32,633 nt of DNA from Deltaproteobacteria bacterium (GTDB taxonomy: Bacteria; Desulfobacterota; Syntrophia; Syntrophales; Smithellaceae): positions 1-32,633 of the forward strand of contig JAKLDS010000026.1 of assembly GCA_022703375.1 (NCBI GenBank), written 5' to 3'. The translations under genes were made by a program, and so were the position numbers. The notes below the pieces were generated by a model, which had not been told where the DNA came from, made no database searches, and was given only the letters and a program-made list of their open reading frames with translations. Shown one piece after another: positions 4,313 to 29,112 of the stretch. The first letter of the stretch is position 1, and each line of letters opens with the position of its first letter.

Positions 4313-4323
4313 TTTTATCCTCC

Positions 4324-5723: not shown

Positions 5724-5796
5724 TTAATAAAAGCAGCCGATTAATCAATTAATGTGCGTACTTACACAATTATTAAATAAGGAAAGGAGAAAGTTT

Positions 5797-6237: not shown

Positions 6238-6252
6238 AAAGGAGGCGATGCT

Positions 6253-6645: not shown

Positions 6646-6664
6646 AAAAATTTGAGGTACCAGC

Positions 6665-6733
6665 CCCGCCTGCGGCGGGACAATTCGACTTGCCAATTCT
6701 ACAGTGCTTCGCTTGTAGAATTGGAGTCTCATT
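6665..6733 (+). repeat. Hairpin repeat element, copy A, between two Hsp20 genes
   Basis: Two hairpins lie side by side. The first is CCCGCC/GGCGGG (6665-6670 with 6674-6679). The second is an 11-bp perfect stem (6693-6703 with 6714-6724) around a 10-base loop, bordered by GGACAATTCGACTTG (6678-6692) and AGTCTCATT (6725-6733). The same borders and geometry recur at 24831-24886 with unrelated stem bases. Parts of the borders also pair (GACT with AGTC). The element ends directly before the ribosome site of the third Hsp20 gene, so it could affect processing or translation of that gene. Confidence 0.8.
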
Positions 6734-6745
6734 GGAGGTGAGGAT

Positions 6746-7240
6746 ATGAAAGTAAAAAATTTATTACCGGCAATCAGCAGAAGAAATCAAATCGAAGAAG
6801 ATCATCCCTTTTATAACTTGCAGCGGGAGATGAACAGTTTGTTCGATGATTTCTTCCGTGGCGGTAGCTTGCTTGCCCGCGGATTTTCCAGCGCCGCCGA
6901 GGCTTTCTTCACACCTCATGTAGATGTGAAAGAAACGGAGAAGGAATTCATCATCAATGCGGAACTTCCGGGCGTTGACGAAAAGAATGTCGAGGTCACG
7001 GTAAGCGATGATTCCGTCATCATCAAAGGCGAAAAGAAGGAAGAAAAAGAGGACAAAAGCAAGAACTATTATTATATGGAGCGTTCTTATGGCTCCTTCC
7101 ACCGGGTAATTCCTCTGAATGCGGAAACCGAATCCGGCAAAGCCGAGGCCAGCTTCAAAAACGGCGTCCTCAACATTACTGTACCGAAAAGCGCAACATC
7201 CAAAGTAAAGGGAACAAAAGTTCCCATCAAATCAAACTAA
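6746..7240 (+). CDS. Small heat shock protein, Hsp20 family (third of three)
   Basis: This 164-residue protein has the longest N-terminal arm of the three, with the family pattern FYNLQREMNSLFDDFF (about residues 22-37). The alpha-crystallin core starts at FTPHVDVKETEKEFII and includes AELPGVDEKNVEV, ERSYGSFHRVI and GVLNITVPK. The C-terminal motif is VPI (residues near 160). It resembles the common class A bacterial sHSP type more than the other two do. GGAGGTGAGG precedes the ATG. Transcription ends at a strong hairpin terminator immediately after the gene. Confidence 0.96.
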   Translation: MKVKNLLPAISRRNQIEEDHPFYNLQREMNSLFDDFFRGGSLLARGFSSAAEAFFTPHVDVKETEKEFIINAELPGVDEKNVEVTVSDDSVIIKGEKKEEKEDKSKNYYYMERSYGSFHRVIPLNAETESGKAEASFKNGVLNITVPKSATSKVKGTKVPIKSN

Positions 7241-8772: not shown

Positions 8773-8880
8773 ATCCGATACCGCCTTTCTTGAATAATAT
8801 TTAAAAACAGTGGCCTGGAAACCATTTTGCCAAAGATGGAATGTTGTTTTGAATTATAAGATAACTGACGGACAATTGCC

Positions 8881-8925
8881 ATAATAAAAACCCCCCGGAA
8901 ATGATTTACCAATTTTTCCGGGGGG
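8881..8925 (-). terminator. Intrinsic terminator of the small RNA
   Basis: An 11-bp stem (CCCCCCGGAAA at 8891-8901 with TTTCCGGGGGG at 8915-8925) with a 13-base loop is followed on the minus strand by TTTTTATTAT. It ends the transcript before the AsmA-like gene. Confidence 0.88.
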
Positions 8926-9085
8926 AAATACGAGAGCCGCCGATGCCGTCTTGTCTTTTTCCTGGAGTCACGCTACTCAAATCTTTGGTCTTCTTTAAGG
9001 GTGATAATCACCACATAGACCGGTTTAGTCTATTTAATTCGTCTCCAGCGAGCTGACTCATTACGAACACCGCAGCATCATCGTT
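8886..9085 (-). ncRNA. ssrS: Probable 6S RNA
   Basis: No protein gene fits here, but the minus strand looks like a complete small RNA unit. It has a promoter (9120-9092), a 5' segment GCTGCGGTGTTCGT and a 3' segment ACGGCATCGGCGGC that pair almost completely (12 pairs including wobbles, plus single-base bulges), and a terminator. The GTGTTCG block near the 5' end and the GGCATC block near the 3' end match the closing stem of proteobacterial 6S RNA as I remember it. Inside are CTGGAG/CTCCAG and small hairpins (ATAGAC/GTCTAT; GGTGA/TCACC). 6S RNA binds the housekeeping RNA polymerase holoenzyme. The 5' end is estimated from the promoter. I have not run a covariance model, so another structured RNA is possible. 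Confidence 0.62.
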
Positions 9086-9091
9086 TTTTTT

Positions 9092-9120
9092 AACTTAATT
9101 GCTTCCGCATGATTTGTCAA
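9092..9120 (-). promoter_or_regulatory. Promoter of the probable 6S RNA
   Basis: On the minus strand a consensus TTGACA (9120-9115) is 17 bases from TAAGTT (9097-9092), a weak -10 match. Transcription would start near 9085, just upstream of the paired 5' segment of the RNA. It lies about 70 bases past the stop of the coiled-coil gene. Confidence 0.5.
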
Positions 9121-9192
9121 GGGAAGGATAACTTTTTCCAGTCGCTTATCACCTAAATTATGACAAATTTTACATCTTTTCGGGATTTACCG

Positions 9193-10101
9193 CTAACCGG
9201 TTATTCTTATGCTTGTGAGCGGCGTACTCCGGGCGATAATGCCGGCGGCACTTTTTTCCGCCTCGGACAATTCCCGGCTGATTTTGTTTATCTCCTGCTG
9301 CAAAGCATGATCTTGTAAATGGCGCAAGCGTTCCTTCTGCTTTTCGGCCAATTCCTTTAAGCGGGCAGCCAGCACCCTTACTTCCTGGGCAAACTGCCGG
9401 TCTGCATTGGCAGCCATGGTTTTCTGCTTCAGTTCGGCAGTTGTTTTCTGTAGATAATCATTCATCGCCTGCTGCCGCGCATCCCGGTATTGCTTCATCT
9501 CTCTGCCCGGTTCTTCGCCTGTCAGTGACGGAGACACAGCCTCGTACGGAGTAACACTGCCTCCTTCATCTTGTATCCCGGACACAGTCATTTCGCCTTG
9601 CCCGGCTTTCGCAGCTAATATCACAGGCTCAATCGCCCCGTAGCTCTGCACACTAACCGACATGACATTGATATCGAAGGAACTGACAGTGCCTGCCGTA
9701 TTCTCTTTAGATAATGCGCCTTCCGCTGATGCCGAGGCATATTCGCGCGCCGCTGCGCTTAGTTCTTTCGCCAGTTGAGCAATCCGGCGGGCAATCATTT
9801 TGGGATTGCCGCCCATCATCATCAACAGCTGAAGCTCTTCCCGGATACGTTTGATTTTTTCCGCCGCCGCCAGTTTTCTCGATTGTAAATTTTGGCTCTT
9901 GCCGGCGTGCAATTGGGCAACTGCCTGTTTGGCATCCGCTAATTGCTTTTTCAGGGTATCGGCTTTTTGCGGGTTGTTCCTGCTGATGGCTTCCAACAGG
10001 CTTTCTTCCGACGTACGTTGTTTTCTGCCTGCCGAGGTATATTTCCGCGTCAGCAGTGCGGCAATAGAGATAACGGAAGCTGTCTTGGCGATTACGTTCA
10101 T
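9193..10101 (-). CDS. Hypothetical coiled-coil protein
   Basis: I do not recognise this 302-residue protein. It has two long charged helical regions likely to form coiled coils (about residues 32-128 and 195-290), joined by a non-helical stretch rich in Ser, Val and Gly (about 140-195, with SVSVQSYGAIEPV). The N-terminal 20 residues are mildly hydrophobic but are not a clear signal peptide or anchor. Heptad-like patterns include KQLADAKQAVAQLHAG and AARLKELAEKQKERLRHL. The weak ribosome site AAAGGG precedes the ATG. It stands alone between the 6S candidate and the divergent yhbY gene, so context gives no function. A cytoplasmic structural or surface-appendage role is only a guess. Confidence 0.75.
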   Translation of the reverse strand: MNVIAKTASVISIAALLTRKYTSAGRKQRTSEESLLEAISRNNPQKADTLKKQLADAKQAVAQLHAGKSQNLQSRKLAAAEKIKRIREELQLLMMMGGNPKMIARRIAQLAKELSAAAREYASASAEGALSKENTAGTVSSFDINVMSVSVQSYGAIEPVILAAKAGQGEMTVSGIQDEGGSVTPYEAVSPSLTGEEPGREMKQYRDARQQAMNDYLQKTTAELKQKTMAANADRQFAQEVRVLAARLKELAEKQKERLRHLQDHALQQEINKISRELSEAEKSAAGIIARSTPLTSIRITG

Positions 10102-11862: not shown

Positions 11863-13830
11863 TTACTTCTTCCCCGTCTTTCGCCGCATATCTTCATTGT
11901 TAAGCGCAATGAGGCGATCGGACGAGACTTTCCTCGTTGGTACAACATGCGAAGGAGGTTGTGGCGACTTGGACTGGAAAACCGGTTGAATTGACACATC
12001 GCTCTGTTTAAAAGAGGATTGTCCTGTAACCAGCAACATGAGTTCATCTACAGCATCTTTCATTGTCACAGACTGCCGATACATTTCTTCGGCCATGGCA
12101 GCTGACTCTTCGGCGCTGGCCGCTGTTTGCTGGGTAACCTTGTCCATTTCGGAAACGGCTAGGTTGATCTGTCCGATACCCTGGCTTTGTTCTTTGGAGG
12201 CAGCGGCAATCTCGGCAACCAAATCTTTTACTTTAGATGCGCTTTCTGCCATCTTGCTGAAAGCTTGGTTGGTTGCGGCAACCAAACCGGCTCCTCCATC
12301 TATTTTCTTCACCGTGTTTTCGATTAAGGTAGCCGTGCTGTGAGCTGCTTCGGCTGCCCGCAACGCCAGGTTGCGCACTTCGTCGGCCACCACTGCAAAG
12401 CCGGCGCCCGATTCGCCCGCCCTCGCTGCCTCAACCGCTGCGTTTAAAGCCAACAGGTTTGTCTGAAAAGCAATTTCATCGATGGTCTTGACAATTTTTT
12501 GCGTTTCTTTACTGGCTTGGGCAATCTCACCCATCGAGACGGTCAAAGCCGACATGGAATCATTGGCAGTCATTGTAATATCGTAACTGTTCTTGACCAG
12601 TATCTCGGCTTGAGAGGCGTTATCGGCGTTTTGACGCGTCATGGAGGACATTTCCTCCAAAGATGATGATGTTTCTTCAATCGAGGCTGCCTGCTCGGCA
12701 GCGCCAGAAGCAAGCTCCTTGCTGGACTGGGAAACCTGCCGGGACGCATCGCCTGTTTGGTCAGCCCCGCTGACAATGCTATTGGCGATTTCGACGACCG
12801 GTTTTTCAATCAGCGCTCGGACCAGGAAAAACATGCCAATGGCAAATACGACTATAAACAATATGCCCATAAAACTGAGCAGCGCCAAAAAGCTGCGCGA
12901 ACTGGCCTGTATTTCCTTTGTGCTCTGGCGATACACCAGATACCATTCATGTAGAATATTGGCCCGTTCTATTGCCACTTTACTGCCGCAGTAGAAATTG
13001 TCCTGACCCTCAAAGACAGCGTTAAACTCGACGAATTTAGCAGTACCGGCAAAAAGCCGGGAGGTAATGGGCTTGATTTTCTCAACCGCATCTTTATTGA
13101 GAATCATTTCTTTTTGGGGATGAGCGATGAACATTCCGCGGTCATCGACAAAAAAGATATATCCGGTATTGCCAATTTTTAATTTATCTATAAAAAGCTC
13201 GGTAAAATAGCTCATCTGTGGCGCCACCACAGCAGTCCCAATCAGCTTGTTGGCAGAGTTTTTGACCGGAGCGGAAATAACAAAAATAGGATTGCCTCGC
13301 AGCAGGCTCGGGTAGACCTGGCTGATAAAATAAGGTTTTCCTTCTCTGATCGCTTTGATATAGCTGAATTGGGGTCCGCACTTGCCGATGGTCTTGCCGC
13401 CAACCGTATCGGTGATAAAGTTGGCGTCCGAAATTGTTTTGGTTTCTCCGTTGACATTAACAGAGATGGTCTGGCCCTGCTCCAGATTCACGGAAAGCGG
13501 CAGATTCTCATAGTATGGAAAACGGGCGTGGATTGCTTTCAGGTAAGCACTGGCTTTCTGCAAAGCGGCCGGATCGGTCGGGTTTTCCATGGCTGCAATC
13601 ACCCGTTCGTCGGCGGCGATCATCTGCACCATTCGAATCTGATCCCCAATCCAATTTTGCAGCGTAATGGAAATCTCTTCCACCGTTTTTTGCCCGAGGG
13701 TGCGGCTGGCACGCTCCTGATTGCTTGATTCAATCACATAAATGATGCCGCATATCAACACAAAAAAAAGAGAAACCGCCGGCAGGCTCCAGAGCAAAAA
13801 TCTCACCAATATTTTTTTTTGATGATTCAT
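11863..13830 (-). CDS. Methyl-accepting chemotaxis protein with Cache-type sensor
   Basis: The 655-residue chemoreceptor has TM1 (about 11-33), a large periplasmic domain (34-313) of dCache type with the distal-module stretch [20 protein letters not shown]2 (about 314-338), and a cytoplasmic signalling domain whose hairpin tip is [19 protein letters not shown] (452-470). No clear HAMP domain follows TM2, and the signalling helices start almost at once. A Pro/Ser-rich tail (about 605-655) ends [12 protein letters not shown], without the classic WF CheR-tether. I chose the ATG at 13830 because AAGGGAGGAGAG precedes it; the open frame extends 32 codons further without support. It should signal ligand binding to CheA through CheW. 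No che genes are in the window. Confidence 0.95.
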
Positions 13831-13997
13831 ATTTTCTCTCCTCCCTTGAGAATTACGCTCGTTTTTCCAAGTAATCATTTTTTTGATATGATTGCTTTGC
13901 CCCTTTTTAAAAACCATTTTCATCAATTACAAAAGAGACGGCATTTCTTTTCTCAGGCAAAACTGAATGGCGCTTTCCGCCCCGCGTACTCGTAAGA

Positions 13998-14415: not shown

Positions 14416-16377
14416 CTAATCTCTTTGCGACTGTTTTACTTCCGAGAATGCAGCGCCAATATTGCTTTTTTCGGGTTGAAATAAATTAAAGGCAACACCG
14501 TTTTTTGCGGTAGAAAAACAAGGCTCGTGATTTTTCGGCAAAGCAGGTATCAATGAGAAAAAACCTTCCTGCCGCGTTCCTTGCGCTATGACAGTCAAAA
14601 AACGTTCTTTGACGGTTGAATTGGAAAATTGCGATAACTCAAAACGCCCGGCGACGTATTGAAAAAGCATGGGATGGGGAGAATCAGAAAACTCGATGAT
14701 GCCTTTGACGCGAAAGACAGTGTGAGGAAGAGCTTCTACGGCAGAGAGGAATTCGCTTCGATTCAGCGGTTCCGGGATAGGCAAAGTTTTAGACCATACT
14801 TCGTCATGCGCGTGGGTAGGGAAAACCGGCAGCTCCGATTCTGCCGCCACAGGAATATTTTTCCCCTCCCACCGGCTTCCCGTATCGAAAATCAGGGCTG
14901 GGTTTAAATCGCCATTCGTTGTCATAAATAGAAGGGCTTGCGGATTTATATTTTTAATCTGTTGGCACGCAGTCTGCCGGCACGTCTCATTAATCAGATC
15001 GCATTTGTTTAAAATCAGAACATTGGCGGCCCGGATCTGGTCAGCTGCAATAGAAAAATGAGACAATGAATAATCCAGATTCAGGCCGTCAACGACCGTG
15101 ACCGTACAGTCGTAGCGGACAAAATCCTCCAGTTCGCTGATTTCGTCAAACAGGTTAAAAGGGTTGGCCGCTCCCGTAGTTTCGAGGATAATGAAATCCG
15201 GTTGAAAATTTGACAAAATACCATGAACTGCGCGTTTCAGATTACCAACAAGACTGCAGCAGACACAGCCTTCGTCTATTTCGGTAACCTCATAGTCGAG
15301 AAGTTTTCCATCCAGCCCGACCTCGCCGATTTCGTTTTGAATAACAGCAACGAATCGGCTTCGCTGTGTCTGATACTCAATAAAATGACGCAAAAAGCTG
15401 GTTTTGCCGGAGCCCAGAAAACCCGATAGAATCATCAAAGGCGGACGCTCATCAATCCCAAGGCTTTTTTTGTTGAGCGTTTTATAATCCTTCATGCTGT
15501 GGGAAAACCACCAGCATTTTTTCTCATAATCCGGAGGAACAGCATCCCCCTCCTTCCACTTTATTTCCGAGCGCAGGTCATTGTTTGTTTTCGTATGAGC
15601 TTTAAAAAGCTCGCCAAAGGGGCCATAACCATAGCCCAGTCCAACAATAACATTGTCAATGTCCGAGGCGGATGTTTTTTTTACCGTTCCTTTATTATCG
15701 TAAGTAATTTCCGCGCCCGGGAATCTCATCTCATGCAGCCAGGAAGGCGGCTGTTCGAGATGAAACGACAATGAAGCAGCCAGGACTTCAAAGAAATCAT
15801 GAGTCACGGAGTATGCGGGAAAATCCTGGTCGTAACCGCCGGGATGAATGAGTTGCACCATTTGTCCGTTTTGTGGCAACCAAACACCGTCGCTGGCAAT
15901 ACTGCGTTGTGCTGTCAGACTTTCCATCCCGAGATACAACGCTTTCTGCGGAAAATCTATGGCCAGAAACACAGTGCCGACAAAGAAAAGGGAAATCATA
16001 TCTTTATATTGAAGAAACTCGCGGACAAAGGACATGTAATCGGGTTTTTGGGTCCAGGCAGCAGCCTGAAGGGAACAATGCTCCACCAATGTTTCAGCCG
16101 AATTAGGAAAATAGCTCAGGTTGAATGCTCCACACACCCATCCCGGCGCATCTGCAACACCGGTAAAAGAAAGTCCGTAAACTCCTTCATATTTGTCAAT
16201 ACGGGCCGTCCAGCCTTCCAGCTCCGGGGTAATAGATTGTTTCAGGCCCCGCCAGCCAAGAGAATAGCGCACACCCGGAACGAACTGGGAACGCATAAGG
16301 ATAGTGCGCATCAGCTCCTGAATTCCACATTCCGCGTCAGATCCAATATCCCCTGGAAAAAAATCCCGCAGTTTCAC
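14416..16377 (-). CDS. CobW/COG0523-family GTPase with long N-terminal extension
   Basis: Residues 312-600 are a CobW/COG0523 G3E GTPase: Walker A GFLGSGKTS (319-327), the metal-binding CxCC motif GCVCCS (370-375), Walker B-like ILETTGAANP (397-406), and LNKCDL. A CobW C-terminal domain follows, with PHTVFRVKGIIEF. Relatives insert or chaperone metals (Zn, Co, Ni, Fe) into target enzymes. Residues 1-310 form a separate domain I do not recognise, rich in aromatics, with GWVCGAFNLSYFP and VIVGLGYGYGPFGELF. At 653 residues it is about twice the usual COG0523 length. The start is GTG (16375-16377), 10 bases after AAGGAAG. No metal transporter or metalloenzyme lies beside it. Confidence 0.88.
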   Translation of the reverse strand: MKLRDFFPGDIGSDAECGIQELMRTILMRSQFVPGVRYSLGWRGLKQSITPELEGWTARIDKYEGVYGLSFTGVADAPGWVCGAFNLSYFPNSAETLVEHCSLQAAAWTQKPDYMSFVREFLQYKDMISLFFVGTVFLAIDFPQKALYLGMESLTAQRSIASDGVWLPQNGQMVQLIHPGGYDQDFPAYSVTHDFFEVLAASLSFHLEQPPSWLHEMRFPGAEITYDNKGTVKKTSASDIDNVIVGLGYGYGPFGELFKAHTKTNNDLRSEIKWKEGDAVPPDYEKKCWWFSHSMKDYKTLNKKSLGIDERPPLMILSGFLGSGKTSFLRHFIEYQTQRSRFVAVIQNEIGEVGLDGKLLDYEVTEIDEGCVCCSLVGNLKRAVHGILSNFQPDFIILETTGAANPFNLFDEISELEDFVRYDCTVTVVDGLNLDYSLSHFSIAADQIRAANVLILNKCDLINETCRQTACQQIKNINPQALLFMTTNGDLNPALIFDTGSRWEGKNIPVAAESELPVFPTHAHDEVWSKTLPIPEPLNRSEFLSAVEALPHTVFRVKGIIEFSDSPHPMLFQYVAGRFELSQFSNSTVKERFLTVIAQGTRQEGFFSLIPALPKNHEPCFSTAKNGVAFNLFQPEKSNIGAAFSEVKQSQRD

Positions 16378-16561: not shown

Positions 16562-17251
16562 TCAGCGCTTGCCCGCATCTTTTTTCGGCCCAAGGAATTC
16601 CAGAGAAATAATTTTGGAATTCTTCCAGCTCACGCGATAAATCTGAATAACATCGCTGGGAATTTCGCTCGAGGTACCGACGGTGCGGCCTTCAACCGTA
16701 TAAGTAACCACCTGTCCTTTTTTTTCAGTATTGACTACATAAGGCTCCTTGATAACCAGAAGACTCATGGCCTGGCAGATAATACCATTGTCGCAATATT
16801 TTTTAAGCGCCGCCTCATATTGCGCCGGGGAACCATGCGCCTGCATGCACTCGCGCATCTCGGGTATAATCTCCTGTTCTAAACTGGCTTTGGCGCCGTA
16901 AAACTCCAGCGAGACAACCCGTTTGCCCTCCCAACATACGTTGTATGCCTGGATTTTATCAGCAGGCAACGCCGAGAACGCTTCCACAACTTCACCTTCC
17001 ACCAGATAACACACCTTCGGACCATTCTTATCAACTCTTATCACATAAGGTTTCTTGATGACCAGTAAACCCATGGCCTGGCGCATTATGCTGGGCGGAC
17101 AGTATTTTTTTAACACCGCTGCATACTTTTCCGGTGAACTGTGGGACTGCATACACTCTTGCATTTCCGGAATAACACGGGGCCCTGGGTCGGCCCAAGC
17201 CAAACCTGCAAGCAGAGTGCTTATCATAATCACAAAAATAATTTGTTTCAT
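16562..17251 (-). CDS. Exported protein of two tandem copies of an unknown domain
   Basis: I do not recognise this 229-residue protein. It has a signal peptide cleaved after LAWA (residue 20). The mature part is two copies of one roughly 95-residue domain (about 27-120 and 125-222). Each copy runs IPEM-EC, a helix ending LKKYC, I--QAM-LLVIK-PYV, a V-Y-VEG strand, a P-D-IQ-Y segment, and W----ISLEF-G-K. Both copies keep one Cys in KKYC. The next gene upstream encodes a single copy. AAGGA precedes the ATG. It is the last gene of the membrane protein, hydrolase and paralogue operon, so a periplasmic partner role there is likely but unproven. Confidence 0.85.
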   Translation of the reverse strand: MKQIIFVIMISTLLAGLAWADPGPRVIPEMQECMQSHSSPEKYAAVLKKYCPPSIMRQAMGLLVIKKPYVIRVDKNGPKVCYLVEGEVVEAFSALPADKIQAYNVCWEGKRVVSLEFYGAKASLEQEIIPEMRECMQAHGSPAQYEAALKKYCDNGIICQAMSLLVIKEPYVVNTEKKGQVVTYTVEGRTVGTSSEIPSDVIQIYRVSWKNSKIISLEFLGPKKDAGKR

Positions 17252-17326
17252 AATATTTTCCTTTTTTTAGAAAATAATATTAAAGGATTTCCAATGCGTC
17301 ATTTTCAATATGGCATCCCCTCCTTC

Positions 17327-17716
17327 TTAATACTCCACTTTACCACTTTTGGGGCCACCCCACTCAAATGACACAATCCTTTTGTTTTTCCACCCCATCG
17401 TGAAAATCCTTGTTGTCCCGACTGCTGTCGGAGAACAATCGCACTTTTCAACGGTGGATTCCATGGTGTAATAGACAATACCCTCTTTTTCTACTTTTTT
17501 CGTCACGATCGGCTTGGTCATAGCGCACTTAGTTAACTCCTTGGGCACCACGCCTGGCTCACCGTATTTTTCTAAAACTGCCGCCCGCTTACTTAGGTTA
17601 GTGAATTGCTTGATCACTTCTTTCATCTCCGGCACCTCTTTAATGGCGGACCAGCCTAATATTCCGACGAGCAATAACAAAAGCAGGAGATATTTCTTCT
17701 TTCCTTTAATAATCAT
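17327..17716 (-). CDS. Exported protein with one copy of the same unknown domain
   Basis: From the ATG at 17716 this is a 129-residue protein with a signal peptide or anchor made of seven consecutive Leu and GILGWSA. Its mature part matches each half of the following 229-residue protein: VPEMKEVI, AAVLEKYGEPG, AMTKPIVTK, a GIVYYTMES strand and WKNKRIVSFEWGGPKSG. It has CAM, CDC and no KKYC Cys, so the Cys pattern differs from its relative. In-frame ATGs at 17722 and 17749 are possible starts; 17716 gives the best spacing (9 bases) from the ribosome site GGAGG. The gene is 29 bases downstream of the hydrolase gene in the same operon. Confidence 0.8.
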   Translation of the reverse strand: MIIKGKKKYLLLLLLLVGILGWSAIKEVPEMKEVIKQFTNLSKRAAVLEKYGEPGVVPKELTKCAMTKPIVTKKVEKEGIVYYTMESTVEKCDCSPTAVGTTRIFTMGWKNKRIVSFEWGGPKSGKVEY

Positions 17717-17745
17717 TATCATTTTCCTCCTTGCGATTAGAATTA

Positions 17746-18921
17746 TCACACCTCGATCCCAAAACCTATTTTGTCTCCGTTACCCAGATATGCCGTATCC
17801 GGTGTGCGATGTCTGGCTGTGCCTTTTTGCACAGGGTACCCGCGTTCGATGAACTTTTTGGCGCAAAGAACTCCCGTGCAGTGGTTACAGCCAATCTTCC
17901 GGAAGCCATACTTGCCCAGCGAAATCACCAGGTCGTCATACTTGGGATCCCAATCCTCAAACGGTGAAATGTGTAAACCGCCGTAAATGCCGTAAAGTTG
18001 ATTTTTCTCATAAGCGATTTGCCTGAAAGCGGTCTCGGCAAACTGGATAATACCGAAGTGACAACAACCGGTGACACTGACCAGGCCTTGATCTTTCACA
18101 TTAGCGTAAATCGCCTGTTCACCGTACACCCTGCAGATAATGGGCACGGCAAAGACATATGTCGCCAGGCCGGGGATGATGGTATTAAGACCCGGTTTAA
18201 CCGTGATTACTTTGCCCTTATGACCTGAATCCTTGAAGTACTGCAAACCTTCAGGATAGAACCCTTCGGGAATGTAAGTTGTGATTGTCGGATCATACTT
18301 AAAAGTAACAGGCACACCCCAGAAATGATCGAAGTGTTCATGGGAAATGATCAGAGCCTCTATCTCCTTGTTTTTCAGCATCTGATCAATGCCTTCGCGC
18401 TTGAAACACTCATCCATCCATTTGTATGACCAACCGCTGTCGAGAAGGAATTTGCGTTTTTTCCCGCTCATTTCCTCCACCTCTATCAGAGCGGCGAATC
18501 CGCCCGCATTCTCCGGATTCACGGAAAGCTTCTCCGTAATCGCCCATGCTTCCTCCAGTTTATTCGGCAAAAGATGTTTTATCTTGGCGATACCACTCTC
18601 ATAACCGCCTTTGCCCAGGCCGGTGCCGTCGCCAAACGGCGGCCAATTATAAGTGTACTGATTGACCAGAAGACCGCCGGCGCCCTTGATATCTTTCATC
18701 AAGGTGGAATTTACAAACCAACTGGTCTCGGAGATGTTAGTTACTTTCATGCTCTTGCAAACGCCGATGTCCGTCATCTTGCGTTTCACTTCCGGAAAGA
18801 ATGACTTGCGCCAGGGAGAATAAGAATAAATACCCATCCCCAAAGCCGCGCCTCCTAACACTCCCATGGCCGCACCCTTGAAAAAATCCCTGCGGTCAAA
18901 TTTATTTTTTTCTTCAGACAT
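17746..18921 (-). CDS. Tat-exported metallo-beta-lactamase-fold hydrolase
   Basis: The 391-residue protein starts with a twin-arginine signal, KFDRRDFFKGAAMG then a Gly/Ala/Leu stretch, so it is folded, probably with its metals, before export to the periplasm. The MBL metal site is ISHEHFDHFWG (HEHFDH at 194-199), with later candidate ligands in TGCCHFGI, YGGLHIS and GCNHCTG. The layout resembles COG1237-like MBL proteins, whose relatives include enzymes acting on pterin precursors, but the substrate cannot be inferred. Several Cys residues near the metal site are unusual. A strong AAGGAGGAG site precedes the ATG. It lies 22 bases downstream of the membrane protein, and the pair look like a functional unit. 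Confidence 0.88.
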   Translation of the reverse strand: MSEEKNKFDRRDFFKGAAMGVLGGAALGMGIYSYSPWRKSFFPEVKRKMTDIGVCKSMKVTNISETSWFVNSTLMKDIKGAGGLLVNQYTYNWPPFGDGTGLGKGGYESGIAKIKHLLPNKLEEAWAITEKLSVNPENAGGFAALIEVEEMSGKKRKFLLDSGWSYKWMDECFKREGIDQMLKNKEIEALIISHEHFDHFWGVPVTFKYDPTITTYIPEGFYPEGLQYFKDSGHKGKVITVKPGLNTIIPGLATYVFAVPIICRVYGEQAIYANVKDQGLVSVTGCCHFGIIQFAETAFRQIAYEKNQLYGIYGGLHISPFEDWDPKYDDLVISLGKYGFRKIGCNHCTGVLCAKKFIERGYPVQKGTARHRTPDTAYLGNGDKIGFGIEV

Positions 18922-18943
18922 AACTTCTCCTCCTTGTCTTAAT

Positions 18944-20371
18944 CTATTTGATGATGTCGATAGTTTTATACATCCAAGGCAAAATGTTCAGGGTGAGGAA
19001 GTAAACGGCAACGCCGCACACAGCGCCGATTCCCAGTCCCCAGCCCAGAGCAGGATTCCACTTGATTTCTGCCACTTTAGCCTTTTCCGCGGCATGATCA
19101 TGCGCAATTTCTTCCGCTGTTTTGGGCACCATTTTCCAGGCCGGCCAGTTGTCCATGAACCAGTGATGGACAAGCCAAACGTTGATAAGCCAGATGGTTG
19201 GTATCATGGGAAACTGCGCTTCATGCATAAATCCCTTTTGAGTTCCCAGGAAATTATGGGACGTTTTGTAGTACACAATATAGAGCAACATTGCGGCCGC
19301 GATTGTTATGACTGTACGAATCAACACATTGACCGGGATGCTGAAGCGTCGTGGCCAGTTGCCGCAGTAAAAAGTGATGAAAATCGCCGGAACAAGGAAG
19401 AAAACCGCCATTTCTCCGACATGCAGCCAGCGCCAATCAGGCGCGTTGATCAGACGCGTTCCGCGGATAGCCTGGCCCCAAGTCAACTCCTGGGCGAAAT
19501 AAAGGAAGAAAAACAAAGCCCAGGCCATGGCGATGATTCCGAAGAAGGCCACCACGCGCCGCAACCAGTTCGTTTTAATCAGTTTAAAAGGAAAGCGTTC
19601 CCAAATCGTTTCCACAATCCAAACCATTATCGTGCAGCACATAATCCAGGACACATGGAACGTGCCTGAAACCGTGTTGGCGAATGACTCCCAATAGGGC
19701 GGCGCGATAGAAGTAAAGTACTGCCACGGATAATAGAGAATGCCCATGTGGGGATGCATCGTCATAAAGAAAATTACCGTACTCAGAAAGAAAGTGACAA
19801 CGAGAATACTAATACCCTTAGCGGGCTGATTCAGCTTTTTCCAGGGCTCCTCCTCGCAGGCCACGATCCAGGCCGGACTCAGCCAGGAGGCGATCGCCGC
19901 AAACATCAAACAGGCCAACGATGCATACTCAAGGGCAAAAAACTCCGTCATCCGGGGTAACTTCATGAGTCTTTCGGGATTAAAATAGGCAATTCCGAAA
20001 TTGCCCAACAAACCCTCGAAGAAAACTTTGATGAGAAGATACAAAATAAAGACTGATATGCCTGTAAGAATGGCTCCCTTTACAAGCGGGTTGGTCTTTT
20101 CCAGCCAACTGCGCTTGAACGGCCAGTAGTTGAAAATATATACCATCCAAATCAGCATGATCAGCCACCAACGTGTGTACATGTAACCTACATAGGGTGT
20201 GTACATCCGCAACCACCCCCGTGGATCCTGAAAAATCCACCACGTAGCGTAAAAAATTGCCAGCGTCAGCACCAGAGAAACAATCGCGGGGATTGGCTGC
20301 GGCCAGCGCGGAACCAGCTTGCGTTCCTCTAAGTAACCTGCTCCGAAACGCTCTTCGACTTTTGCTTCCAT
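18944..20371 (-). CDS. Trp-rich multi-pass membrane protein of unknown function
   Basis: I do not recognise this 475-residue inner-membrane protein. About 11 hydrophobic spans are visible, for instance near residues 27-46, 65-82, 98-118, 145-168, 185-206, 275-297, 318-340, 351-371 and 446-466. It is unusually rich in Trp, Tyr and Phe (TRWWLIMLIWMVYIFNYWPF is one span). His residues at span ends (MTMHPHMG, VHHWFMD) could bind metal or haem. The amphipathic segment near 410-440 (HDHAAEKAKVAEIK) is probably cytoplasmic. It heads the operon, with AAGGAGGG before the ATG, behind a leader of about 400 bases and two GntR-type operators. A transporter or an electron-transfer partner for the hydrolase are both possible. 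Confidence 0.85.
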   Translation of the reverse strand: MEAKVEERFGAGYLEERKLVPRWPQPIPAIVSLVLTLAIFYATWWIFQDPRGWLRMYTPYVGYMYTRWWLIMLIWMVYIFNYWPFKRSWLEKTNPLVKGAILTGISVFILYLLIKVFFEGLLGNFGIAYFNPERLMKLPRMTEFFALEYASLACLMFAAIASWLSPAWIVACEEEPWKKLNQPAKGISILVVTFFLSTVIFFMTMHPHMGILYYPWQYFTSIAPPYWESFANTVSGTFHVSWIMCCTIMVWIVETIWERFPFKLIKTNWLRRVVAFFGIIAMAWALFFFLYFAQELTWGQAIRGTRLINAPDWRWLHVGEMAVFFLVPAIFITFYCGNWPRRFSIPVNVLIRTVITIAAAMLLYIVYYKTSHNFLGTQKGFMHEAQFPMIPTIWLINVWLVHHWFMDNWPAWKMVPKTAEEIAHDHAAEKAKVAEIKWNPALGWGLGIGAVCGVAVYFLTLNILPWMYKTIDIIK

Positions 20372-20444
20372 AAATTCCCTCCTTTTGGTTTATTATCCGG
20401 AATCTCTAAAAAGAGATCCTTCTTTTAGGGACAAGCCCTGAAAG

Positions 20445-20645
20445 CTAATCGTAATGGCAAGCTCGCGGCAAAAAAACTCGCACCTTGGATAGTAACGAAC
20501 GGGAATAAGCAAAGGGGTTAAAGCAGTGCGCTTTTTGGACAGACGCACCTTCTCGAAGAAAAGCGATTGTGTCTTGTTTGATGGACAGGCAGCACCTACA
20601 TATTTCGCCTCTGATAAAGCTGAGCTTACTTAGACCCACCGACAT
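20445..20645 (-). CDS. Possible 66-codon leader ORF, doubtful
   Basis: An ATG at 20645 follows AAAGGA by 7 bases and opens a 66-codon frame with several Cys and Arg (GEICRCCLSIK, PRACHYD). It lies inside the roughly 400-base leader of the membrane-protein operon and matches nothing I know. It may be a leader peptide or chance. Apart from this and the regulatory sites, the 672-base gap from 20372 to 21043 shows only a small AGAGAT/ATCTCT hairpin near 20402-20417. Confidence 0.22.
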   Translation of the reverse strand: MSVGLSKLSFIRGEICRCCLSIKQDTIAFLREGASVQKAHCFNPFAYSRSLLSKVRVFLPRACHYD

Positions 20646-20753
20646 TACCCAGTCCTTTGCAAAGCGTGTTGAGGTAAAATGTTAAAATGCATTACTCAGG
20701 GAATCTTTTAATTCAAAGCATAGAAATAGACAAAATCAGTCAATCATTCCCCC

Positions 20754-20772
20754 TAATTGGTAGTACCAATTA
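20754..20772. promoter_or_regulatory. FadR/GntR-type operator, promoter-proximal
   Basis: TAATTGGTAGTACCAATTA is a perfect 19-base palindrome whose core TGGTAGTACCA fits the TGGTNNNACCA operator known for FadR-subfamily GntR regulators. It lies just downstream of the predicted start point near 20779, a position where a bound repressor would block transcription. A gene for such a regulator lies about 270 bases away. Confidence 0.8.
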
Positions 20773-20785
20773 ATTCATTATTGTC

Positions 20786-20814
20786 TTCATACGATGACCA
20801 TATAACAATGTCAA
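20786..20814 (-). promoter_or_regulatory. Promoter of the membrane-protein/hydrolase operon
   Basis: On the minus strand a consensus TTGACA (20814-20809) is 17 bases from TATGAA (20791-20786). Transcription would start near 20779. It is bracketed by two TGGTNNNACCA palindromes. Confidence 0.68.
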
Positions 20815-20851
20815 GATATTATTTTAATATAATAACAAATAATACATTTAT

Positions 20852-20862
20852 TGGTATTACCA
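20852..20862. promoter_or_regulatory. FadR/GntR-type operator, upstream
   Basis: TGGTATTACCA repeats the operator pattern of the first site. The centres of the two sites are 94 bp apart, about nine helical turns, on the two sides of the promoter. This suits repression by DNA looping, though that is an inference. Confidence 0.72.
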
Positions 20863-21043
20863 CTTAACCGGGGCTTTTACTGTGATTTTGCCGGCTCATT
20901 TCCGTATTCGGACAATGTTATTGCTGATTTAAACAATAATTGTCCGTGCCCTCTGCATAGCGGCCATGTAGCTGTTTCTCGACAAATCAAAAAAAGCGGT
21001 AATGATAAATTTGCGCGGCATTAAAATGCGCGGGGTAAGTCTG

Positions 21044-21769
21044 CTATCTTTTTTCCGTTATTGCTTTTGACAACGCAGGAGATAATTTCAAACAGGAATA
21101 TTTCTCGGAAAGACGGCAAAAATTCTTAATACGATTTCTGATGACAGACGCCAGTAATTTTCTATCATGTTGTTTTAATGCTTTCAACACTTCCACTTCA
21201 AGGGCAAAATAATGATTCTTTTCCTTTTCATTCATTGAGCTGAATACTTTTCTTAATAATGGCATCGAAGGCTGCAATAAACCCATTATCGGATGGGCGA
21301 TTCCGTTTCCCCAGCACCTCATAATTTTTTGAACGTATGATGATTCACTTATAAGCACGCTTTGTACGTCGGATGCCAATATTGCCTTGCTCAGGTAAAC
21401 TATCCGCTGCTGAAGTTTTTCTATTATCTTATCGCCTATACATTCCGCCGCATACTCCATCAGAACAGGCTCAAGAAGATATCGTGCTTCCAGCTTGTCG
21501 CTTTCCATCGTGCTCTCATCGTTTTTGGATGCGCTGGTTTCATCTCTTTTCTTTAGCCCGTTTAGGTTGATTATATATGCCCCGCTGCCGCCTTTTATCG
21601 AAATATTCCCCTGCGTTTCCAGCACGGCAAACACTCTCCGTAAGGTATTACGACTCGTTCCAAGAATATTGCAGAGGTTTCTTTCTGAAGGCAGGCGGTC
21701 ACCCTCGTTCCATTTTTGGGAGCTGATTAAATCAATTAGTTTATTTAAAATATCATCGCTTTTGGCCAT
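21044..21769 (-). CDS. GntR-family transcription regulator, FadR subfamily
   Basis: The 241-residue regulator has the GntR winged helix at residues 5-68 (WNEGDRLPSERNLCNILGTSRNTLRR, given in two parts: WNEGDRLPSERNL then GTSRNTLRRVF), followed by a charged linker and an all-helical FCD-type ligand domain (about 92-225). FCD domains bind small carboxylic acids, often with a metal. The palindromes at 20754 and 20852 match the expected operator, so it very likely represses the downstream membrane-protein operon and releases it on ligand binding. AGAGG precedes the ATG. It starts 79 bases after the PAS protein stop and may share its transcript. Confidence 0.92.
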   Translation of the reverse strand: MAKSDDILNKLIDLISSQKWNEGDRLPSERNLCNILGTSRNTLRRVFAVLETQGNISIKGGSGAYIINLNGLKKRDETSASKNDESTMESDKLEARYLLEPVLMEYAAECIGDKIIEKLQQRIVYLSKAILASDVQSVLISESSYVQKIMRCWGNGIAHPIMGLLQPSMPLLRKVFSSMNEKEKNHYFALEVEVLKALKQHDRKLLASVIRNRIKNFCRLSEKYSCLKLSPALSKAITEKR

Positions 21770-21848
21770 AAATAAAACCTCTGATAGAAACCGCAGGAAT
21801 CCCCACTTGCGAGGACAAGGCCTCCCCCTGCCGAATCTGTTTCGCCAA

Positions 21849-23165
21849 TCATTTTTGCCGCCACTTGTTAAGCCCCTTTAGAAATCCCGGATAAAGAAGC
21901 GAATACTCGGAAATCGAGTTTTCCGAAAACATATGAGGCGCTGTCGAACAAAGTATCAAAACGGCGCGCATTAACTTTCTGCTGTAGAAGGCTTTCGCAA
22001 AGTAGGAGCGTACGCCATACGGAATGAAAAGAGCCCAGTCAATAGGCTTGATGCTCGAGAAGGTATCATCCACAATAAGATGGTCAAGTTTGAATTTCTC
22101 AATATTTTCGGCAATTGTGCCTTCATAGGGAAATGGTTCGCCCTGCCGCAATTTGGCAAAGACACTTCCCGCTGTATAGACCTGCACCTTTTTCTTATTT
22201 GCAAATATGTCGGAAAAGATGATTGCATCAAATTTCGGTTTGTCGTATTGATTTTCGAGTAATATGCGTAACACCTTAATGATATCATCAGTATCGCCGA
22301 TTTTAGCAAGGATATCCTGGCTATACTGTTGCTTAAAATTTTCCTTGGCATTAAAATCATTAACGGCAACAGCTTGATTTTTCGATAGGTCATTCTGCAT
22401 ATGGATGTCGTGGATAGATACGCGCAACACCTGTTTCCCCCTTAGCCACAGCGCCCGAATGACGACATCGGAAGCAATGGGGGAGCTCGCCTTTCTCCGG
22501 AAAATCAGCGTTCCTTCCCATTTTTTCTCAAAGACCACTTCCTCGTATATTCGGTTGATATGATGGCCGACACTCTGATCATAGACATCGGAAAAATTCA
22601 AATGTCTGAACGCACCAGGCTTAATATTCAATAAATCGCTGGCCGCTTTATTGTGGGCAAGAATCGCTTTTGATTCGAGATCCACAAGAAGCACGGGATT
22701 GTCAGCAAATTCAATCATCGCCTGCAACTCGGTATCTTTGTCGGTGATGGACTGACAGATTTGAACAGTATCGGTCACATCAATAATGCCTCCCAGATAG
22801 AAATCGGGACATCGCCGGTTGATCATACCGACCAGCTTTGTCCACCTTGTTTCATCGTCTTTTATTTTAATGCGGAATATGGTAGTGGCGGGTCGGCCTT
22901 CCTTCAGTGCTTTCATAAAGCTTTCAAAAAGATGAAAATCCTCCTTGTAGATCACCCTTTTACTGAAATTCATATTTTTAATGAGAAGCTGAGTTTCTTC
23001 CCCGAGACCTTCCAGCATGTAGTTGTTCAGAAATTCGATTCTGTTCTTAACAATATCGACATTCCAAAGCAGCGCAGGATAACTTTCAATAAAATGAATG
23101 TTTTCCCCACAAATGGGGCAGTGCCCCTGATACTTACCGTCATGTTTCTCTTTCCCGTCTTCCAC
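21849..23165 (-). CDS. PAS-domain sensor protein without kinase or other output domain
   Basis: The 438-residue soluble protein begins with a small Cys motif, HCPICGENIHF (residues 15-25). Two PAS-like domains follow (about 28-130, with GGIIDVTDTVQI at the end, and about 150-260, with NPVLLVDLESKAILAHNKAA). A C-terminal region (about 275-430) is GAF-like or unassigned. I see no histidine-kinase, GGDEF, EAL, HTH or sigma-54 activator domain, so it must signal by protein contact or be a novel output type. The start appears to be GTG at 23165; AAGGGAA lies 12 bases upstream, so the start is not certain. It is adjacent to the GntR gene on the same strand, suggesting joint control of the downstream operon. 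Confidence 0.78.
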   Translation of the reverse strand: MEDGKEKHDGKYQGHCPICGENIHFIESYPALLWNVDIVKNRIEFLNNYMLEGLGEETQLLIKNMNFSKRVIYKEDFHLFESFMKALKEGRPATTIFRIKIKDDETRWTKLVGMINRRCPDFYLGGIIDVTDTVQICQSITDKDTELQAMIEFADNPVLLVDLESKAILAHNKAASDLLNIKPGAFRHLNFSDVYDQSVGHHINRIYEEVVFEKKWEGTLIFRRKASSPIASDVVIRALWLRGKQVLRVSIHDIHMQNDLSKNQAVAVNDFNAKENFKQQYSQDILAKIGDTDDIIKVLRILLENQYDKPKFDAIIFSDIFANKKKVQVYTAGSVFAKLRQGEPFPYEGTIAENIEKFKLDHLIVDDTFSSIKPIDWALFIPYGVRSYFAKAFYSRKLMRAVLILCSTAPHMFSENSISEYSLLYPGFLKGLNKWRQK

Positions 23166-25407: not shown

Positions 25408-25436
25408 TTGATATTTGAGAACCGTTCTTCTATCCT
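25408..25436 (+). promoter_or_regulatory. Possible promoter of the exported-protein cluster
   Basis: TTGATA (25408-25413) and TATCCT (25431-25436) are 17 bases apart, about 130 bases upstream of the TPR protein gene. Both boxes are imperfect. The sequence from 25230 to 25407 shows no gene. Confidence 0.35.
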
Positions 25437-25564
25437 TAATGCCAAGACATGTCCCTTTCCGCCAGATCAATATTGTTTTCAACAAGGCAAATTCAGCCTC
25501 TAAGGGACTCCAGCGAAACATAAATCAATCATTGTCTCTATCATCCCGTCCGGAGGTAAGCGTT

Positions 25565-26377
25565 ATGATGTCTTATAAGAAATGGTGGCTAGCAGTAACA
25601 GTTTTTGTTCTCGGGACTATAATACCTGCTGTCGGCTCCGCAGAAGAACTGAAAGGCCGGTCGTCAGTTTCACAGCTTACTGCTCAAATGACGAATACCT
25701 TTCGTCTGCCATTAAGTGAAGCGGAAAAAGAGCTTGCCGGCAACGCCCAGGCGCTTGCTGCTTTGAAACACGGGAAAGCCGTCAAGCTAAAGCAAGAATA
25801 CCTGCGCTACGGCGACATGAAAAAACTTTACACTGCGCTCAACACTGCCGGAGAAGCGATTGAACTTGCTCCCGACCAGCCTCAGTACTGGATTACGCTG
25901 GGGAGTATTCATTCCGAACTGTCCCGGTTTAATATTTCCCGGTCAAACGAATACGCTCAGGAAGCTTTCCGGCAGGCCCTCGATCTTGCGCCGGATGCCT
26001 CTGCCATGGTGCTTTTGGCCGTCAGCCTTGCGAAGACCGGCGAATACGAGGAGGCGCTGGACTATTTTGAAAAGGCGGTTACAACAAATATTCTGATGCT
26101 CAGCGCCGATATTGCCGGTTGGATGAACGTCTGCTATCTGGCTGACGCCCACACCTGGCGCGGCACTGTCTTTTATGAAAACATCCAGAAAAACCATCCC
26201 GGATACTATTACCTGAATCTCTACCAGGCAGTTCTCTATAAGGCCCATTTCGATTATGACAGCGCTCGCCGGGAGTTGACGCAACTTCTCAAGCGGTATG
26301 ACATTGACCGGGCAACGAAGGAAACCGCGCAAAAGCTTCTTCGGGAAATAGACGAGAAAGGAGGGCAAAACTCATGA
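25565..26377 (+). CDS. Exported TPR-repeat protein
   Basis: From the ATG at 25565 this is a 270-residue protein with a signal peptide cleaved after VGSA (about residue 26). Helical repeats fill the rest. The clearest TPR units are YWITLGSIHSELSRF to YAQEAFRQALDLAPD and AMVLLAVSLAKTGEYEEALDYFEKAV. A last unit is FDYDSARRELTQLLKRYD. TPRs bind protein partners, here in the periplasm. GGAGG lies 8 bases before the ATG; the frame is open 50 codons upstream, but that part has no ribosome site. The stop overlaps the start of the 912-residue gene (ATGA), so the two products probably act together. Confidence 0.88.
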   Translation: MMSYKKWWLAVTVFVLGTIIPAVGSAEELKGRSSVSQLTAQMTNTFRLPLSEAEKELAGNAQALAALKHGKAVKLKQEYLRYGDMKKLYTALNTAGEAIELAPDQPQYWITLGSIHSELSRFNISRSNEYAQEAFRQALDLAPDASAMVLLAVSLAKTGEYEEALDYFEKAVTTNILMLSADIAGWMNVCYLADAHTWRGTVFYENIQKNHPGYYYLNLYQAVLYKAHFDYDSARRELTQLLKRYDIDRATKETAQKLLREIDEKGGQNS

Positions 26378-29112
26378 AAAAAATAATGATAATCATCCTC
26401 CTTCTGTTCTTTTTTGCCGGAGTCAGTTTTGCTGCTATCAGCACTGAACAACTGGCGGCAAAGGCCCGTCAGGGGCAGGAATTGTTCGAAGCTTTGGTGC
26501 TTGAGCGGAATAAAGAAATCGATTGGATAATGGCAAATCCTTCCAAATCGCCGCAGGCAAAGGAACTGGCTGTAAAAAACAAACAAAATGAATTCCTGAA
26601 AAAGAGCAGGGAAATACACCTGAAATACCGTGAGCCGTTCATAAGGCGGGTAATAGCGGAAACAAACGACACTCTGCCGGAGGGTAAAAAAATAAAAACC
26701 GGTCTGGGATCGGACATTTATCAAAGGCACAAGGTAACGGGCAATGTGGAGTTAGATCAAAAGGGCAAAAAAATAATCAACCCGAAACACAGGGGGATGG
26801 AGGGAGACCTGGATCTTGGCGGTGACGGTCGTGCGGTGAAGAGACTGGAAGAAAACTTCGCAAAGTATAAAGACATCTATCTGCCCCAAAAACCAGGCCA
26901 GCCGCCCGGAGGCGTTGTTACCAGCAGCAGCATGGATGCTCCGGGGTACCGCGATTTCGGAGATGTGGAAGTGACGATCAATATTTCCGGAGAACCAGAT
27001 ATTCCCGGTAGTTCCGCCCATCAGACCAGGGTGCAGATGGACGCGTTTTCCAAAGAAACTTATGTGTCCGTGGGCATGAGAAAAAACCAGGTTGGCCGCA
27101 GTGTGGTGGAGACCAACGATCATATTAAAAAAGCTGCCAAGGGGTTTGCCAGTCCTCCGGCCAAACTTCTGGGCATAAGCGGTGAGAAGACCCTGCAAGG
27201 CATGAGCAAGGGCACGTTGAAATCTATTGAATCCGGCAAGGTGGACGATACGCAGTTGGCCAGGGCACTGAAAGATTCCGATTATCCGGGGGACGTAACC
27301 TCATTCAAGGAGCAGTTGAACGGGCTTAAGGAAGGTCACTTGCATCAGGGTGTGGGACTAAATGAGAACAATATTGAAGCATTTCAAAAGGCCTGCAAAA
27401 AAACGGCCGATCAGGCTTTGGGAAATGCCCAGCTTCAGTATGCCCAACAAAAGAAAGCTTTACAGTCACGGATCGATACATATGAGGCCAAAATAAAGTC
27501 CGGCGAGCTTTCCGGCGATCAACTGGAAAGACACAAGAAGGTCTCTAAAAAACTCAGGGAAGAGCTTGTTGATTCCAAAGTAAAGATCGAAGAGACCAGC
27601 CTGGCCAATAAGGTGAAACTGGAAGGAGGGTCCTACGACGACTATTTCCAGAAAAACGCGTTGACCAATGTCACACCGATTACAGCTACACCGAAAATGA
27701 CCAGAATGCAGGCAGTCAAAAACGGCCTTATGCCCGGCCTGCTGGATGTCGCCGGTTATGGGATGTCTGCTTATAACGTTTATAACAATATTACCAGGAT
27801 GCAGAAGGGCGAAATATCCCAGAATGATGCGGTTATCGGTATAACGGCGGAGGCTATTGATACCGGATTCGGCATGGTGACCGATGTGGGGACGGCGGCG
27901 GCCATCGGTTCAATCGGCACCGGCGCTGCGGGAACGGCGGCAACAATTGGTGCCCCTCTTGTTGTGTTAGCCGGGGCCGGATATGCCGTAAGCACTGCTG
28001 CTGAAGAAGGGCTGAAGACATTTGCGGCCTTTAAGGTCGAAGAAATTGCCGAAAAGATTGCCAAATCAAAAAAAGAAGAAACCATCAACACGCTGCAGCT
28101 CCAGGCTGAGGAGTTGCTGAAGTCGGGCGAGGCCACCGGCGACTGGCGCTATTTTGCCAAAGCAGAGGATATTGCAAGCTCGCTGGAACGGATGTATCAG
28201 GTGACCGGCGATGATGATTTTAAAAAGACTTTTGAGGCCGTCTATAACCGGGTAAATCAGAAGAAGGACAGCCTCGAGGCGAAGTACAATTGCTCAATTT
28301 ACGCCCTGCAGGGCAAGATGGATACGGCAAAGGCCATTGAGCTCAAGACGGAGAAGGCGGAACCGGCGGAGCTGAAAATCAGGGTTTCACGGGTACTTTT
28401 GGGCGATCAGTACGGCAATTACAGCATTACGGCGCCGGAAGGTTTTAAAGAGCCTTTCACGGTTCGTGTAGCCGGCGGTGAACTCGAGGTCAAAAAGTCA
28501 CCGGATCCTCTGCGTGGCCAATTTCGCGGCACGGTTTCCGCATCTGACAGCACCCATACCTTGTCTTTTCTGGTGAAGGATGTAAATGGACGCACTGCCC
28601 GGGGCACTGCCGTTGTCAATGTCCGCGGGCTCGATCCCAAAACCATTAACAGCATGAATCGTCCTCAACAAACGATTTACACCGCTCCGCCCCGCCAGAC
28701 CCCGGTAGTTCAATCCGGCAAAAAAGAAAGCGGGGAACCGGATGATTATAACAAAAAGATTAAAGGTATCATGGATGATTACAATCAGGAGATGATTCGT
28801 ATACAACAACAAAAAAACAAGGTTCCGGCATACAAGCCTCAGCCGCAGCCGGCCACACCAAACCGGTTATCCGGCGGCGCCCAAGACAATCAAAGTCAGC
28901 AGAAGAAATGCCGGTCATTTTCTATTAATGCGAGTTCCTGCCAGAGCAGTTACTACAGTTGCTCGAAGCAATGTCGGGGAAGTAATACCTGTCTTTATCA
29001 ATGCGGCAAGGCGAACGAGGCTTGCATAAATGGACTAAAATCACAGTGCCGGAGTCAGGGTGGAAGTTTAAGCGGTGTGGGATTTAATCTTACATGTAGA
29101 ATCTGCCAATAA
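26374..29112 (+). CDS. Large exported multidomain protein with Cys-rich tail
   Basis: I do not recognise this 912-residue protein. In order it has a signal peptide (1-20), a charged helical N-terminal region, a Gly/Pro region (about 165-215), and coiled coil (about 330-420). Next is a Gly/Ala-rich hydrophobic segment (about 449-545, with GTAAAIGSIGTGAAGTAATI) that could insert in a membrane, then a helical part. A probable Ig-like beta domain follows (about 670-760, with SFLVKDVNGRTARGTAVVNV), then a Pro/Gln linker, and a 69-residue tail (844-912) with ten Cys, likely disulfide-bonded. Colicin-like or polymorphic toxins have comparable hydrophobic centres, but no toxin domain or immunity gene is recognisable. 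AAAGGAGGG precedes the ATG. Confidence 0.88.
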   Translation: MKKIMIIILLLFFFAGVSFAAISTEQLAAKARQGQELFEALVLERNKEIDWIMANPSKSPQAKELAVKNKQNEFLKKSREIHLKYREPFIRRVIAETNDTLPEGKKIKTGLGSDIYQRHKVTGNVELDQKGKKIINPKHRGMEGDLDLGGDGRAVKRLEENFAKYKDIYLPQKPGQPPGGVVTSSSMDAPGYRDFGDVEVTINISGEPDIPGSSAHQTRVQMDAFSKETYVSVGMRKNQVGRSVVETNDHIKKAAKGFASPPAKLLGISGEKTLQGMSKGTLKSIESGKVDDTQLARALKDSDYPGDVTSFKEQLNGLKEGHLHQGVGLNENNIEAFQKACKKTADQALGNAQLQYAQQKKALQSRIDTYEAKIKSGELSGDQLERHKKVSKKLREELVDSKVKIEETSLANKVKLEGGSYDDYFQKNALTNVTPITATPKMTRMQAVKNGLMPGLLDVAGYGMSAYNVYNNITRMQKGEISQNDAVIGITAEAIDTGFGMVTDVGTAAAIGSIGTGAAGTAATIGAPLVVLAGAGYAVSTAAEEGLKTFAAFKVEEIAEKIAKSKKEETINTLQLQAEELLKSGEATGDWRYFAKAEDIASSLERMYQVTGDDDFKKTFEAVYNRVNQKKDSLEAKYNCSIYALQGKMDTAKAIELKTEKAEPAELKIRVSRVLLGDQYGNYSITAPEGFKEPFTVRVAGGELEVKKSPDPLRGQFRGTVSASDSTHTLSFLVKDVNGRTARGTAVVNVRGLDPKTINSMNRPQQTIYTAPPRQTPVVQSGKKESGEPDDYNKKIKGIMDDYNQEMIRIQQQKNKVPAYKPQPQPATPNRLSGGAQDNQSQQKKCRSFSINASSCQSSYYSCSKQCRGSNTCLYQCGKANEACINGLKSQCRSQGGSLSGVGFNLTCRICQ

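Follow-up and report, generated by a model that had tools for sequence, protein, structure and literature searches.

A recurrent gene set joins a tryptophan-rich membrane protein of no assigned family to a predicted Tat-exported metallo-beta-lactamase-fold hydrolase

The gene set described here lies on a 32,633-nucleotide stretch of DNA, hereafter the window (contig JAKLDS010000026.1 of assembly GCA_022703375.1, a deltaproteobacterium of the Smithellaceae), where the gene for a tryptophan-rich inner-membrane protein, MEM, is followed by that for MBL, a predicted hydrolase of the metallo-beta-lactamase fold that carries a twin-arginine translocation (Tat) motif. The original prediction had proposed an undescribed system of six minus-strand genes between positions 16562 and 23165, and all six were found at those coordinates: a PAS sensor, a GntR/FCD regulator, MEM, MBL and two exported proteins, EXP1 and EXP2 (Table 1). 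The six genes are real, but the set drawn there ends one gene early, as a fusion of an N-terminal domain, CobN, with a CobW/COG0523 GTPase belongs to it as well. The tight spacing and strong ribosome sites claimed for the locus are also present: MEM and MBL are 22 bp apart, MBL and EXP1 ~23 bp when EXP1 is read from its better start at ATG 17722, and EXP1 and EXP2 75 bp, with strong AGGAGG-type ribosome sites preceding MEM, MBL and EXP1. The gaps on either side of the CobW fusion measure 184 bp towards EXP2 and 489 bp towards a dCache_1 chemoreceptor gene.

A five-sequence MEM alignment, run against 84,980 species genomes, yielded 172 confirmed loci, of which 80 were kept; together with seven from the window's own family, the window copy included, they form a set of 87 loci whose genes were mapped by tblastn. 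Some of these loci sit on truncated contigs, so that the lower gene counts are minima. MBL adjoins MEM in 86 of the 87 loci, across several phyla; the co-occurrence on which the proposal of a system had hung is therefore found in other genomes, and the genes are not unlinked in relatives. MEM and MBL are co-inherited, their distance matrices correlating with r = 0.92 over 90 loci and 0.88 inside the close group, although some correlation is expected from shared history alone. The CobN domain is present in 73 loci and the CobW GTPase in 67; 57 have a small SRRxFF protein, 43 GntR and 39 PAS, and the core order is largely kept across several phyla. The genes are one genuine recurrent unit, of which the CobW fusion is a core member. 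Rarer companions are an NtrC-type regulator and the EXP family (18 loci each), ExbB, ExbD and TonB (16 loci each) and a NifX-like protein (15 loci). The two exported proteins, counted as members in the original prediction, are thus present here as lineage-specific extras. Conversely, the small SRRxFF protein, core in most relatives, is absent at the window locus, where no remnant of its gene was found. Such proteins start with an SRRxFF-like motif that resembles a Tat n-region, without a clear hydrophobic segment behind it (L048 9685-9975, L025 9678-9998, L046 9674-9952 and others).

MEM is present in 19 of 394 genomes of the window's phylum and in five of the 51 of its family. The window's own genome carries a second, divergent copy with the order NtrC-MBL-MEM-CobN-small protein (G000:C39, L088 6024-11650). 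Pseudomonadota and Thermodesulfobacteriota rows are intermixed in the tree, which suggests horizontal transfer of the gene set between phyla, short of proof because many rows are metagenome bins. A search of the plasmid database PLSDB returned no match for MEM or MBL.

Table 1 Coordinates of the features at the window locus and of stand-alone CobN genes in relatives
Feature	Position	Strand	Remarks
PAS sensor	21849..23165	-	PAS_9; 51% identical to PAS protein of L026
GntR/FCD (FadR-type) transcriptional regulator	21044..21769	-	Pfam GntR + FCD
Candidate GntR operator 1	20852..20862		TGGTnnnACCA
Candidate GntR operator 2	20758..20768		TGGTnnnACCA; TTGGTACTACCAA on - strand
MEM, Trp-rich inner-membrane protein	18944..20371	-	475 residues, 11 helices
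MBL, Tat-type metallo-beta-lactamase-fold hydrolase (predicted)	17746..18921	-	presumably COG1237-like
EXP1, small exported protein	17327..17722	-	ATG at 17722 preceded by AGGAGG
EXP2, exported protein	16562..17251	-	two EXP1-type domains
CobW fusion	14416..16377	-	653 residues; N-terminal CobN (~300 residues) + CobW/COG0523 GTPase
dCache_1 methyl-accepting chemotaxis protein	11863..13926	-	probable associate of operon
Stand-alone CobN with His/Cys-rich tail	L002 2809-3771		
Stand-alone CobN with His/Cys-rich tail	L005 446-1411		
Stand-alone CobN with His/Cys-rich tail	L007 455-1411		

MBL belongs by its sequence to the metallo-beta-lactamase superfamily and is a predicted metal hydrolase. It matches Pfam Lactamase_B above the cut-off (28.1 bits vs 22.7), and its metal-binding motifs HEHFDH, TGCCH and NHCTG are intact, with H194, H196, D198, H199, H288 and H347 at least 95% conserved over 91 homologs. 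The nearest solved structures are 7dck, 2p4z and 3h3e (profile E 5e-17 to 2e-6), hydrolases of a type that we take to be COG1237, with which MBL shares family membership by sequence and the motifs HxHxDH, TGCxH and HCTG/HCSG. Unlike these enzymes, MBL has extra N-terminal segments, a Tat motif and MEM as its neighbor. The Tat export claimed for MBL in the original prediction is supported by an RR motif followed by a hydrophobic segment, the RR being kept in 84 of 87 relatives; the Pfam TAT_signal model stays under its cut-off (15.7 vs 22.7). No anti-phage system was matched among the PADLOC models, the only hit being LmuA against MBL (E 0.0045, 14 bits, 68 core residues).

MEM, which had been described as an 11-span aromatic-rich membrane protein, indeed contains 6.5% Trp and 19% aromatic residues, and its AlphaFold2 model shows 11 long helices, with a predicted local distance difference test score (pLDDT) of 83 and a predicted template modeling score of 0.87. 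The positive-inside rule places the N-terminus inside, and the loop charges agree. Over 90 homologs reaching down to ~27% identity, 24 residues are invariant, 21 of them in the predicted periplasmic half (Fisher p = 2e-4); they include Y57-T58-P59, E148, H206, H208, Q217, W227, T233, R314 and H317, and position 383 holds His in 85 homologs and Gln in five. The invariants E148, H206, H208 and H317, an E/H/H/H set on the predicted periplasmic side, suggest a plausible metal site. No family could be assigned to MEM by comparison with Pfam, NCBIfam, PADLOC, PDB sequences (single and profile), Foldseek or VIA-align. A weak Ureide_permease match, seen in 12 of 47 members (best E 2e-4) and covering only ~65 residues of the window protein, was rejected.

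The fused GTPase matches Pfam cobW PF02492 (E 6e-40) and retains GFLGSGKT, CVCC and NKCD, and no NCBIfam subfamily cut-off is reached by the fusion. It shares the Walker A, CxCC and NKxD motifs with COG0523/CobW GTPases such as CobW and ZigA, from which it differs by the added CobN domain of ~300 residues and by its linkage to an exported MBL. Stand-alone CobN proteins of divergent copies carry a H/C-rich C-terminal tail (HHFHDDSCYLCSCYHEHH in L002) at the point where the fused form runs into CobW, a pattern that fits metal handling. Neither sequence nor structure comparison revealed a recognisable relative of CobN (model pLDDT 86); the best VIA-align rows, START-like 2ejx and 3w9k at Z 5.4, are inside the tool's noise range. 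DsrC-like proteins with tandem domains adjoin the CobW fusion in L011 (on both sides, 5912-6571 and 8684-9361) and in L010 (14977-15666). As for the exported proteins, they are of one family, as had been proposed: EXP1 matches both repeats of EXP2 (E 4e-14 and 1e-13), and the repeats are 54% identical to each other (E 3e-38). A Uteroglobin match of EXP2 (E 3e-4, under cut-off) was judged to be chance.

The regulator contains GntR (E 3e-13, 49.5 bits vs cut-off 27) and FCD (E 8e-7, 30 vs 24.3) domains and reaches no NCBIfam equivalog cut-off; the FCD domain suggests a small-molecule effector. The operators that had been read from the window are likely genuine sites. TGGTnnnACCA occurs only twice in the window, both times upstream of MEM in the 672 bp that separate it from GntR; 0.21 occurrences are expected for the whole window, and two of 100 shuffles reach two. 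In relatives the motif is conserved at the locus, lying no more than 400 bp upstream of gntR in 37 of the 42 that bear the gene (~1.7 expected), often twice, and in alphaproteobacterial loci it stands between gntR and a divergent PAS gene. Whole-genome scans of 14 relatives for the strong form WTTGGTnnnACCAAW found it only at this locus in six (G057-G060, G063, G064) and at least once elsewhere in the other eight; because of those six, the regulator looks largely local to this operon. The GntR helix-turn-helix, the FCD domain and TGGTnnnACCA are common to FadR, NanR and LldR, but here the regulator is paired with a PAS protein and the strong sites lie mostly at this operon. That PAS protein (PAS_9, E 2e-7) conforms to the predicted sensor lacking an output domain, none being found in its last ~170 residues. 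The nearest MEM relatives of the window have a sigma-54 (NtrC-type) regulator and a NifX-like protein, or neither, and the regulator has therefore been swapped in the window's clade. Besides the dCache_1 gene next to the window operon, chemoreceptors occur at the locus in L044, L048, L057 and L060, in L048 between the PAS and GntR genes.

We favor, with moderate confidence, a single regulated periplasmic hydrolase module. The GntR/FCD protein would bind the two TGGTnnnACCA operators and control a MEM-MBL-EXP-CobW transcription unit, with the PAS protein, and perhaps the neighboring dCache chemoreceptor, reporting on a ligand. The CobW fusion, presumably cytosolic, would act as a dedicated metallochaperone with MBL as its client, charging it with metal before export; folded MBL would then leave via Tat and work alongside MEM on the periplasmic side of the inner membrane. 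MEM, with its own conserved His/Glu site on that side, may either be another enzyme that depends on metal or let the product enter. That MEM binds metal, that MBL contacts it and that the chemistry is hydrolytic are all inferred at this stage. Several observations weigh against such a module. Only about half of the loci have the PAS/GntR pair, the nearest relatives using NtrC-type and NifX-like proteins in its place. Rhodospira and Roseospira, and L058, L059, L064, L068 and L084, hold only the small protein, MEM and MBL in the fetched stretch, so that some loci can do without a CobW of their own. The 184-bp gap before the CobW fusion makes co-transcription of this last gene uncertain. A bolder version, which we put forward tentatively, makes MEM the first member of a new family of integral-membrane metalloenzymes whose E/H/H/H site opens towards the periplasm. 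MEM and the chaperone-loaded, Tat-exported MBL would then be the two enzymes of a periplasmic pathway, horizontally spread among phyla, for a compound that is common where anaerobes live.

MEM could instead be a product transporter devoid of metal chemistry, in a system that scavenges or detoxifies a small extracellular compound after periplasmic hydrolysis by MBL. A polytopic protein of transporter size, FadR-type regulation, chemoreceptor genes at the locus and ExbB-ExbD-TonB genes, which most of the 16 loci that have them carry downstream of CobW, all speak for this. (A TonB receptor was sought near the TonB-bearing loci; the two large open reading frames checked are PheT and MetE.) We nonetheless regard scavenging as rather unlikely, as MEM matches no transporter family and its strictest conservation, of H, E, Q, R and Y, is confined to one side, an uncommon pattern for alternating access. 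In several of the scanned genomes, moreover, this operon is the sole place where the strong operator occurs, which leaves no receptor or catabolic gene there to share the regulon.

A redox module, with MEM as a haem- or metal-binding oxidoreductase of the periplasmic face and MBL as an accessory or maturation hydrolase, is less probable still. Small CxxCH cytochrome genes lie just upstream of MBL in three divergent relatives (L116 10581-10934, L117 7162-7500, L118 7162-7608) and for this reason make a redox role possible, in line with the conserved periplasmic His residues of MEM and with DsrC-like and HdrD-like genes at a few loci. Near most loci, however, no cytochrome gene was found, and only three His of MEM are strictly invariant. 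The three best Foldseek matches of MEM are ActC chains of alternative complex III, an NrfD-like protein, and are weak (E 0.012-0.075). ActC is not among the VIA-align rows listed, whose best, G-protein-coupled receptors at Z 4.5, is at noise level, and NrfD is not one of the Pfam families that 47 MEM homologs match at E<=10. The window's own genome was scanned for an NrfD to compare with MEM and gave no match. With neither Pfam nor sequence-profile backing, the relation to ActC was set aside.

Improbable, too, is a role in envelope lipid or cell-wall processing, in which MBL would cleave phosphodiesters or esters at the surface of the membrane. MBL would act at or near the membrane if partnered with MEM, and EXP relatives in L016, L040 and L048 carry lipoboxes, but EXP genes are confined to the minority of loci counted above, and the patchy spread within the phylum together with ligand-type local regulation fits an accessory trait better. 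Zur regulons of other bacteria typically contain COG0523 proteins and TonB-linked genes, and by analogy CobW and MBL might be low-zinc paralogues in a zinc-starvation operon, which we consider very improbable given that regulators of the GntR or NtrC type with FadR-type sites appear to govern the operon and that the MBL/MEM pair is no duplicate of a housekeeping enzyme.

Genes around the loci vary. Beta-oxidation, aldehyde/alcohol dehydrogenase and TRAP transporter genes are found near some and betaine-type ABC genes near L117, and no consistent substrate clue recurs across loci. Elsewhere in the window, three tandem small-heat-shock-like (Hsp20-type) genes (5752-7240, plus strand) lie near dnaK/grpE-like genes (2381-4944, minus strand), and a gene for an exported 912-residue protein with a Cys-rich C-terminus and no Pfam match (26374-29112, plus strand) adjoins one for a tetratricopeptide repeat protein (25415-26377).

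Returning to the hydrolase module, the claim of an undescribed system stands, as the set is recurrent and no curated family, defence model or solved structure was found that describes MEM or the gene set, nor any paper on the set in the open-access full-text literature. The gene set is new as a set, and MBL, CobW, GntR and PAS are members of known families. The statement that no member except the regulator could be assigned a function is right for MEM, which matches nothing convincing, and too strict for MBL, whose family is recognisable. Of the four core proteins, three (MEM, CobN and the small SRRxFF protein) are without a curated-family match, and neither MEM nor CobN has a clear relative among solved structures. 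Newness thus rests on these parts and on the absence of matches, and the chemistry could yet prove familiar. Most likely, a metal-charged periplasmic hydrolase and its membrane partner act on a compound that the local regulator, and perhaps a chemoreceptor too, would sense. The hosts include many anaerobes, among them sulfate reducers, purple bacteria and the gut genera Bilophila and Parasutterella; Pseudovibrio exalbescens, Rhodoplanes serenus and Malonomonas rubra are cultured hosts. Many anaerobes would accordingly keep under tight local control a function that is missing from current maps. A dedicated metallochaperone and conserved operators make the system testable, and the ligand of the regulator should point to the substrate.

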